Below are positions 21,279 to 34,455 of a DNA stretch of 34,455 nucleotides, one piece after another. The stretch comes from Gammaproteobacteria bacterium (lineage in GTDB: Bacteria > Pseudomonadota > Gammaproteobacteria > Thiohalospirales > Thiohalospiraceae). The stretch lies in contig WFXP01000122.1 in the NCBI GenBank assembly GCA_015490535.1, positions 1 through 34,455 of the forward strand, given 5' to 3'. The notes below the pieces were generated by a model. That model was not told where the DNA came from. It ran no database searches and saw only the letters and a program-made list of their open reading frames with translations. How positions within the stretch are numbered: the stretch's first letter is position 1; each line of letters starts with the position of its first letter. The position numbers and the translations under genes were made by a program.

Positions 21279-22345
21279 ACATTCTGGATCGCTATATCGG
21301 GCGCACGGTGATCACCGGCACGCTGACCACGCTGGCGGTGCTGCTCGCCCTCTATATCTTCATGACCTATGTGGGGGAGCTGCGGAAGGTGGGGCGGGCG
21401 CAATATACCGCTTTGACGGCGCTGCAGTTCACCCTGCTGACCCTGCCACGCTGGGCCGGGGATCTGTTTCCCATGGCGGCCCTGATAGGCAGCCTGATGG
21501 GCCTCGGCAACCTGGCCAGCAGCAGCGAGCTGACGGTGATGCGCGCTGCCGGGGTTTCGGTGATGCGCATCACCTGGGCGGTGGCGAAGGTGGCGCTGCT
21601 GATGATGGTTGCGGTGGTTCTCATCGGGGAGCTGGTGGCGTCCCACAGCGAACAGTACGCCTTCAAGCTGCGCGCCGCCGCGCTGCAGAAGCATGTGTCG
21701 GTCAATACCGGCTCCGGTCTCTGGATCCGGGAGGGAAACAGCTACATCAACGCCCGCACGGTATATTCCAACCGCCGTTTGGGAGGGGTTCACATATACG
21801 AGTTCAGCGCCGCCAAGCAGCCGCTCAAACTGACCTACGCCCCGCAGGCCGGCTACCGGGAGGATGGGAGCTGGCTCCTGGAGGATGTGAGCCAGACCCG
21901 CTTCTCCGAATCCCGCGTTACCGCCGCACGGCGGGATGAGCTGGTATGGCGCGGAATTCTCGATCCCGGACTGATCGATGTGGTGGCGGTGGAACCACAG
22001 GGTCTTTCTTCCCGCGAGCTGCTGCGCTACATCGGCTATCTGGAGAACAACGGGCTCAATTCCGACCGCTACCGGGTGGCCTTCTGGAGCAAGCTGGCGG
22101 CACCGTTCGCCACCGGGGCCATGATGCTGCTGGCGATCCCTTTCGTCTTCGGAGCCATGCGCTCCGTGAGCGCGGGCAGCCGGCTCCTGGCCGGCACCCT
22201 GATCGGGATCGGCTTTTATCTGTTCAACCACAGCCTGGGGCAGCTGGGGGTGGTCTACTCCATCCCCCCGTTTCTGAGCGCCACCCTGCCCACCATTTGC
22301 GCTGTGGCCGTCACTTGCTATATGCTGCAGAAGGTAAAAAACTGA
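21275..22345 (+). CDS. lptG: LPS export ABC transporter permease LptG
   Basis: A 356-residue protein beginning at GTG 21275, which overlaps the lptF stop by four bases. MNILDRYIGRTVITGTLTTL is the typical LptG N-terminus. It shows the same plan as LptF: three spans, a periplasmic jellyroll domain (about 130-265) and three C-terminal spans, with FWSKLAAPFATGAMMLLAIPFVFG in the fourth span region. It partners LptF and LptB in LPS extraction. Foldback copy 4 begins directly after its TGA stop (22343-22345), so the natural terminator, if any, has been displaced or replaced. Confidence 0.95.
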   Translation: MNILDRYIGRTVITGTLTTLAVLLALYIFMTYVGELRKVGRAQYTALTALQFTLLTLPRWAGDLFPMAALIGSLMGLGNLASSSELTVMRAAGVSVMRITWAVAKVALLMMVAVVLIGELVASHSEQYAFKLRAAALQKHVSVNTGSGLWIREGNSYINARTVYSNRRLGGVHIYEFSAAKQPLKLTYAPQAGYREDGSWLLEDVSQTRFSESRVTAARRDELVWRGILDPGLIDVVAVEPQGLSSRELLRYIGYLENNGLNSDRYRVAFWSKLAAPFATGAMMLLAIPFVFGAMRSVSAGSRLLAGTLIGIGFYLFNHSLGQLGVVYSIPPFLSATLPTICAVAVTCYMLQKVKN

Positions 22346-22607
22346 GTTCTTCCCCAAAGCGTGTGGCTAGAATGGTAAATCACCGCGTAGCGGCTCGCTC
22401 CTTGACAGGCGGAATACACGCCACATACCCGGTAACCAGGAGGGGATGGGGGTCGTCTGGCTGGGGACAAGCGGATATCCACCACCTGCGCGAATTGCAA
22501 GTGATCCGGCCAATTCCAAGGTGTCCCCAATCCCCTTCTGCCGACCATCTTCCGGCGTGCACTCCGCCTGTCAAGGATGATTTACCATTCGATTTGAGGA
22601 AGACCCT
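22346..22607 (+). mobile_element. Foldback (MITE-like) element, family A copy 4, ends worn
   Basis: About 262 bp. It retains the inner palindrome (GTGTGGCTAGAATGGTAAATC on the left and TGATTTACCATTCGATTTGA on the right, the second lacking the CACCCACA block), the TTGACAGGCGG arms and the GGGGAT/ATCCCC region. The outer GTACTCC ends seen in the other copies are missing. The asymmetric insert (GCGTAGCGGC) is in the left arm, so it has the same orientation as copy 2. It follows the lptG stop without a gap. Confidence 0.8.
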
Positions 22608-22757
22608 AAAACTGAAGCCCGCCATCCGGAAATAGCGCGACGAACATACTGCCTCTGAGGCAAGGGTCGCCTTCCCGCGATTTCAGACGGAAACACCGGA
22701 TGACCTGGCAACAGAAAAGCCCGTTTCGACGCCACGGCTGAAGGAGGGGTGATATCC

Positions 22758-29673: not shown

Positions 29674-29699
29674 TCCCCTCCCTCATGCAGTGGTATCTT

Positions 29700-29853
29700 G
29701 TAACTATTCAGCTCACCCCTGAAATCCGCCATTTCTGCGTTGAAAAATGGTCATTTACCCTCCGTAAACTCCCATTTTTCGCCTCGAACTGACGAATTTC
29801 AGAGGCGATCTAAACATTTACAGGCATGTTTCAATACCATGCTGAATAGTTAC
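29700..29853. mobile_element. 154-bp MITE-like element, IS66-type ends
   Basis: Perfect 13-bp inverted ends GTAACTATTCAGC (29700-29712) and GCTGAATAGTTAC (29841-29853), with patchy complementarity further in. It is flanked by GGTATCTT (29692-29699) and GATATCTT (29854-29861), an 8-bp direct duplication with one mismatch. An 8-bp duplication and GTAA-type ends are features of the IS66 family; the exact parent is not identified. There is no coding frame inside. It lies in the 278-bp gap between dsbA and the acetolactate-synthase-like gene. Confidence 0.75.
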
Positions 29854-29951
29854 GATATCTTCTCGTTATCGGCCGCCACCGCCACAACTCCACCCCCGGG
29901 CGTACCGGTGATGGCGGATCGCACCCGGCCGGCCGCTGCCTCCGGATCAGG

Positions 29952-32658: not shown

Positions 32659-32929
32659 CTAGTACTCCGTCAAGATTATAACTCAGGATGCAGAACTTCC
32701 CGAACCGGCCAAGGCAAGGTGCACTCCGCAGGGAATGGCATGCCCTTTCCAAGGAGAGCAACGCAGCATTGGCCGGTTCGGGAAGCTCCCTTCGGGCCAG
32801 GCAGGAGGCGGTCATCTGCGGTGTTGCGCTCTCTTGAATTAGCCATGGCTAGTCCTGCGGTCGCGCGCCTAGCAGATGACCGCTTCCTGACCGGTCGCAT
32901 CCTAAGTTATAACCTTGACGGAGTACTAG
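32659..32929. mobile_element. Foldback (MITE-like) element, family B
   Basis: A 271-bp element bounded by CTAG at both sides. The 33-bp inverted ends (32659-32691 and 32897-32929, starting CTAGTACTCCGTCAAG) pair at 31 of 33 positions. Inside are two hairpins: a perfect 17-bp pair (32696-32712 with 32769-32785, CTTCCCGAACCGGCCAA type) and a 17-of-18 pair (32802-32819 with 32872-32889, CAGGAGGCGGTCATCTGC type). The outer ends resemble those of family A, but the interior does not. A C-TA/TA-G border would fit a TA-duplicating (IS630/Tc1-like) transposase; that is inference. There is no transposase inside. Confidence 0.85.
32675..32680 (-). promoter_or_regulatory. Possible -10 box inside the element end
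   Basis: On the minus strand the left end of the family B element contains a consensus TATAAT pointing at the repeat lipoprotein gene, 67 bases before its ATG. No good -35 hexamer is seen at 16-18 bases, so this is only a candidate, but there is little room for a promoter between the element (32659) and the start codon (32608). Confidence 0.3.
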
Positions 32930-33560: not shown

Positions 33561-33772
33561 ACCTCATGGGAACAGCATGTTGTATCGATGCCCAACCGGG
33601 CGCACCGGCCCGGATATTTCGCCGGTTACCGGCCGCGGCAACGGCCCAGGCTTTCGAATCAATTGTCCTGTTGGCCCGGCACGATCAATCTCTCTGTTGA
33701 AAAACTTTCAAGGACAAAGTGGTTCTGCCGCCACGCGCTCAGGCTGTTGCGCCGGCGCCATACACCGATGGA
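33561..33772. other. Intergenic stretch with no visible feature
   Basis: Between the kbp promoter and the stop of the minus-strand yceI copy I see no supported coding frame, terminator or repeat. Confidence 0.4.
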
Positions 33773-34351
33773 TCACTGCCGTATCCCCTCGATGGAGAGC
33801 CAGATGTGCACCTTCTCCGCCGCCGGTCCCAGGATGTGCCCCTCTTTCATCCCGTAGTCGGAGAGATTCAGCACCGTGCTGCCTTCGAAACCACGCCGGT
33901 AGCCTCCCCAGGGATCCTTGCCGGCACCCACCTGGCGTACGTCGATGACGATCTCCCGGGTCACACCGCGCAGGGTGAATTTCCCCTTGAGTCGCGCCCT
34001 GCCGTCGCCCAGATCTTCCCAGCCGGTGCTGACGAAGGTGGCCTTGGGGTATCTCTTCACGTCGAAGAAGCGTTCGTCCCGCAGATGCTTGTCGCGCTCG
34101 GCGTGATTGCTGTCGATGCTGGCCACGTCGATCTCCACCGATACGCGGTTGTTGGCCGGGTTGGTCTCGTCGTAGGTGAATTCTCCCGAAAAGCGGTTGA
34201 AGCGCCCCTCCAGCCAGCTGAAGCCAAGGTGCTGGATGCGGAAGGTGATGAAGGCATGCATCCCTTTGGTGTCGATGAGATAGCGTTCGGCCGCCTGCGC
34301 CGTATGCTGGGGGTAGAATAGTCTTTCACACCGCAGAAGGAGGTAGACCAA
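33773..34351 (-). CDS. YceI-family protein with abnormal N-terminus
   Basis: Mature YceI sequence is complete: AERYLIDTKGMHAFITFRIQHLGFSW, then FSGEFTYDE, VEIDVASIDSNHAERDKHLRDERFFDVKRYPKATF, FTLRGVTREIVIDV and the terminal HIWLSIEGIRQ, forming the lipocalin-like barrel that binds isoprenoid-type lipids in the periplasm. A signal peptide should precede TAQAAERY, but the frame instead reads back into LLRCERLFYPQH to a TTG at 34351-34349 with no ribosome site. So either the start is misjudged, or this copy has lost its export signal and is decaying. The first 48 bases of the mature part are repeated in inverted orientation at 34408-34455. It is head-to-head with an intact-looking yceI start. 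Confidence 0.7.
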   Translation of the reverse strand: MVYLLLRCERLFYPQHTAQAAERYLIDTKGMHAFITFRIQHLGFSWLEGRFNRFSGEFTYDETNPANNRVSVEIDVASIDSNHAERDKHLRDERFFDVKRYPKATFVSTGWEDLGDGRARLKGKFTLRGVTREIVIDVRQVGAGKDPWGGYRRGFEGSTVLNLSDYGMKEGHILGPAAEKVHIWLSIEGIRQ

Positions 34352-34455
34352 TGTCCAGGAAAATTTTCACCTTTCTCGCCCTGATGCTGGCCATCACGAG
34401 CATCACCGCGCAGGCGGCCGAACGCTATCTCATCGACACCAAGGGGATGCATGCC
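34253..34455. repeat. Inverted duplication of the yceI 5' region
   Basis: The arms 34253-34300 and 34408-34455 are reverse complements at 47 of 48 positions; the one difference is a synonymous Lys codon (AAA/AAG). The 107 bases between hold the signal peptide and ribosome site of the plus-strand copy. The right arm stops only because the window stops, so its true length is unknown. Confidence 0.85.
34351..34455 (+). CDS. YceI-family protein, N-terminal part
   Basis: Thirty-five codons up to the window end. AGAAGGAGG stands about seven bases before ATG 34351, an excellent ribosome site. MSRKIFTFLALMLAITSITAQA is a clean signal peptide, and AERYLIDTKGMHA begins the mature YceI domain, so this is an exported lipid-binding-type periplasmic protein. 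The remainder lies outside the window. Its mature N-terminus is identical to that of the minus-strand copy. Confidence 0.8.
   Translation, partial: MSRKIFTFLALMLAITSITAQAAERYLIDTKGMHA

Follow-up and report, generated by a model that had tools for sequence, protein, structure and literature searches.

The two facing copies of yceI at the end of the window (the whole stretch of DNA analysed, which is the entire contig C122 and amounts to 34,455 bases) are, most probably, one ordinary yceI that is read twice via a foldback chimera at the contig end, i.e., an assembly-end artefact, and the foldback is probably not a real genetic feature. Such an explanation is favoured because the arrangement lies at a contig end, because the contig stops 12 nt past the base in which the repeat arms differ, because neither a second yceI nor its usual cytochrome b561 neighbour was found in the bin, and because the arrangement is absent in the relatives. 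Contig-end foldbacks of this kind can pass for a switch or a duplicated gene; comparing the loop with what normally lies upstream of that gene in a relative is a simple way to recognise them.

A probable single yceI in two pieces

The features of the window end are as follows, with the same-genus sister genome G001 and its yceI locus L005 serving as references:

33773..34300, minus strand: yceI (bcnA-like lipocalin) mature domain (PF04264, 143.6 bits; 96.3% nucleotide identity to the G001:C277 yceI)
34253..34303, minus strand: left arm of the inverted repeat, first mature yceI codons (from the complementarity of the arms)
34294..34300, no strand assigned: junction microhomology CCTGCGC, common to the antisense yceI and the sister-genome b561 tail
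34301..34320, plus strand: last cytochrome b561 (lcoA-like) codons, ...RMLGVE and stop (aligning to the b561 end in L005)
34336..34342, plus strand: yceI ribosome binding site AAGGAGG (from the sequence)
34351..34455, plus strand: yceI start, signal peptide and first mature codons (91% nucleotide identity to L005 for window 34294-34455)
34405..34455, plus strand: right arm of the inverted repeat (from the complementarity of the arms), stopping at the contig end

The inverted repeat occupies the final 203 bases, its 51-nt arms being paired at 49 of 51 positions (96% complementary) across a 101-nt spacer, and, because the window spans the whole of a contig, base 34455 is also where that contig stops; the genome is a fragmented one (171 contigs, 92% complete). 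The first-pass annotation had described facing yceI copies joined by an inverted repeat at this very end, and its description of the parts is borne out: the plus copy has a ribosome site and a signal peptide (AAGGAGG, then the ATG at 34351, then MSRKIFTFLALMLAITSITAQAAERYLIDTKGMHA) before running off the contig end, the minus copy has a full mature domain without a signal peptide, its own start being severed by the junction, and the two indeed match at 47 of the first 48 mature bases. Within those 48 bases the copies differ only by AAA vs. AAG, a synonymous change (Lys) 13 nt short of where the contig ends; the arms have one further mismatch, between 34301 and 34407, which sits at the junction. 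The match of the arms is far beyond chance because both of them are one gene segment. The plus fragment and the remainder of the minus copy join in frame into an intact YceI of 194 aa, 187 of which are identical to those of G001, and, having the YceI domain, a signal peptide (contributed by the plus fragment) and cytochrome b561 upstream, the joined gene fits a YceI/BcnA lipocalin.

In the sister genome G001, yceI is present once (L005 1447-2031), directly behind a cytochrome b561 gene that ends in ...LRRMLGVE (that b561 gene, L005 871-1418, is itself split by a frameshift, being either a sequence error or a pseudogene). Window positions 34294-34455 align to L005 1391-1551 (91%), while the minus strand of 33773-34308 aligns to L005 1495-2031 (96.3%), and the loop, which contains the b561 tail followed by the same yceI's ribosome site and signal peptide, is therefore nothing other than the ordinary upstream region of that gene. 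In other words, the segments that are joined inverted in the window are neighbours ~100 nt apart within one L005 locus. A b561 gene lies directly upstream on the same strand in 76 of the 86 yceI loci examined from elsewhere, whereas a head-to-head (opposite-strand) yceI pair is seen in 0 of these 86, and the foldback was absent from all of the 11 other genomes of the family in which it was looked for. This linkage has been published as the lcoA-bcnA pair (PMC9113575), an operon in which the gene for a secreted YceI directly follows b561, and the window loop, likewise, carries a b561 end; unlike the operon, however, the window has only the last b561 codons, and these are on the wrong side of the foldback. 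Searches of the rest of the bin found neither b561 nor another yceI, so the true upstream flank is either unassembled, unbinned or lost.

The junction and its plausible origin

There is a single abnormal point, 34294-34300, at which the antisense yceI switches into the b561 tail. The antisense yceI reads GGCCGCCTGCGCGGTG and the G001 b561 tail GACACCCTGCGCCGC, with the 7 nt CCTGCGC being common to both (the b561 side of this comparison comes from the sister genome, the b561 of the genome itself not being assembled), and the contig switches inside them. For an inverted junction placed at random in the same region, the probability of sharing at least 7 nt is ~0.00055, and a switch at an inverted microhomology is what 3'-end snap-back or template switching typically leaves behind. 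A join made by the assembler itself was considered and rejected, as a 7-nt overlap would be far below the usual k-mers; with 7 nt being too few for such a join, there was presumably a physical chimeric molecule, formed either in vitro or in vivo.

We infer that the chimera originated in vitro, and its formation might have proceeded as follows. The organism would carry one ordinary b561-yceI (lcoA-bcnA) gene pair, and, at the library preparation or amplification stage, the 3' end of an antisense yceI strand would have lain within the b561 tail, its last bases being ...GCGCAGG-3'. This end could have folded onto the CCTGCGC ~100 nt back, either on the same strand or on a sister strand, primed itself there and been extended as the opposite strand, giving a molecule that would read, along the window, as antisense yceI, the loop in sense and the yceI start again. 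The assembler would then have placed this chimera as the final ~155 bases of the contig, with the true continuation into b561 missing.

Comparable artefacts have been described. Inverted joins are the main class of MDA chimeras (85% inverted, with 2-21 nt of complementarity; Lasken and Stockwell 2007, PMC1855051), most of which have been argued to arise on neighbouring displaced strands rather than from hairpins (PMC1855051). The window junction resembles them in that nearby segments are joined inverted at a short complementary sequence, and differs in its spacing of only ~100 nt. Partly single-stranded DNA also yields inverted chimeric reads, induced by hairpins or microhomology, when its ends are repaired, and mismatches between short repeats then show up as false variants (PMC8674242; PMC10908179). 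A near-perfect short inverted repeat with one part of the read inverted is what is seen here as well, and the mismatch at 34301 may be such a false variant, although those reads were described for human libraries and as single reads, whereas the present case is a contig end.

Two observations count against an artefact. One is the synonymous base between the arms, as a pure single-molecule snap-back needs an error or a second strain to produce it. The first-pass annotation had cited this very difference as a weak argument against a pure artefact, and a weak one it is, since strain variation or a read-end error suffices so close to the contig end. The other is that, among ~78 readable contig ends (84 were sampled, six of them apparently masked), only this one has a foldback within single-copy coding sequence. 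A systematic tendency of the assembly to produce foldbacks was accordingly rejected as a candidate explanation, the other clear terminal inverted repeats being mostly in multi-copy palindromic elements.

Alternative readings of the facing copies

A chimeric join, an invertible switch and an inverted gene duplication had all been put forward in the first-pass annotation. The chimeric join is the best supported of them because the loop is the normal upstream region, because the junction falls within a 7-nt inverted microhomology and because the feature ends with the contig; the inverted duplication gives the same junction, and the switch found no support.

A real inverted duplication, present in some or all of the cells, is unlikely. 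Snap-back at CCTGCGC/GCGCAGG would, in that case, have truncated b561 and left one yceI without its start and signal peptide, and the same junction sequence would be expected in vivo: in bacterial tandem inversion duplication, snap-back at a short quasi-palindrome yields just such a junction. The one-base difference between the arms, the failure to find b561 in the rest of the bin and the variation in gene order within the genus would all be in keeping with it, but the arrangement is absent from all relatives and would disrupt a conserved gene pair, and the contig stopping 12 nt past the differing base looks like a thinly covered tail. A tandem inversion duplication would also show a second junction and a complete second copy; neither a second junction nor copy-number evidence is seen here, where the contig ends inside the right arm. 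Were the duplication real, it would add a new example of a conserved gene pair being split by snap-back duplication. That it is fixed in the lineage, with a secreted and a signal-less copy facing each other across the 101-nt loop, the inversion of which would move the start from the one to the other, is highly improbable.

A phase-variable switch, in which recombination between the yceI arms would invert the loop and thus move the ribosome site and signal peptide between the copies, is barely credible. Geometrically, inversion of the loop would indeed give a complete minus-strand gene, but both arms are coding sequence from one gene rather than known recombinase sites, and no relative has two facing yceI copies. 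The recombinase search, which covered two families, found no serine recombinase (resolvase) in the bin and three tyrosine recombinases, all of them on other contigs, leaving C122 with none of either family; the switch was rejected, as there is no recombinase near the repeats. An ordinary diverged yceI paralogue continuing beyond the contig end is just as remote a prospect, for, even though some relatives do have more than one yceI per genome, the arms are identical at 47 of 48 bases and the loop corresponds exactly to what lies upstream of this same orthologue.

Mixed similarity and repeats along the window

The yceI is 96% identical to that of G001 at the nucleotide level, whereas the long matches over the rest of the window are at 73-81%, which suggests either recent transfer or bin mixing; the similarity to G001 ends exactly at the yceI stop codon. 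The lysM/BON gene, which is found beside uvrA in six sister genomes, adjoins yceI here, and this might mean that genes move between species, that contigs are mixed between bins, or that there is a second (chimeric) join near 33590-33773. The uvrA of this genome is located elsewhere (L161, G000:C105, 3044-5887), not beside lysM/BON, and is 98% identical to that of another genome (G002) over the 1457 bases compared, while the neighbouring window genes are at 77-85%.

A 271-bp MITE-like element with ~33-bp terminal inverted repeats (CTAGTACTCCGTCAAG...) is found at window positions 32659-32929, has many copies in this and the sister genomes, and lies just upstream of a peptidoglycan-binding gene, to whose open reading frame it appears to add a spurious start. 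Two more short repeat families (22331-22611 and 29698-29857) have many copies in G001 and G002, and a considerable share of the contig ends sampled from the bin fall in repeats.
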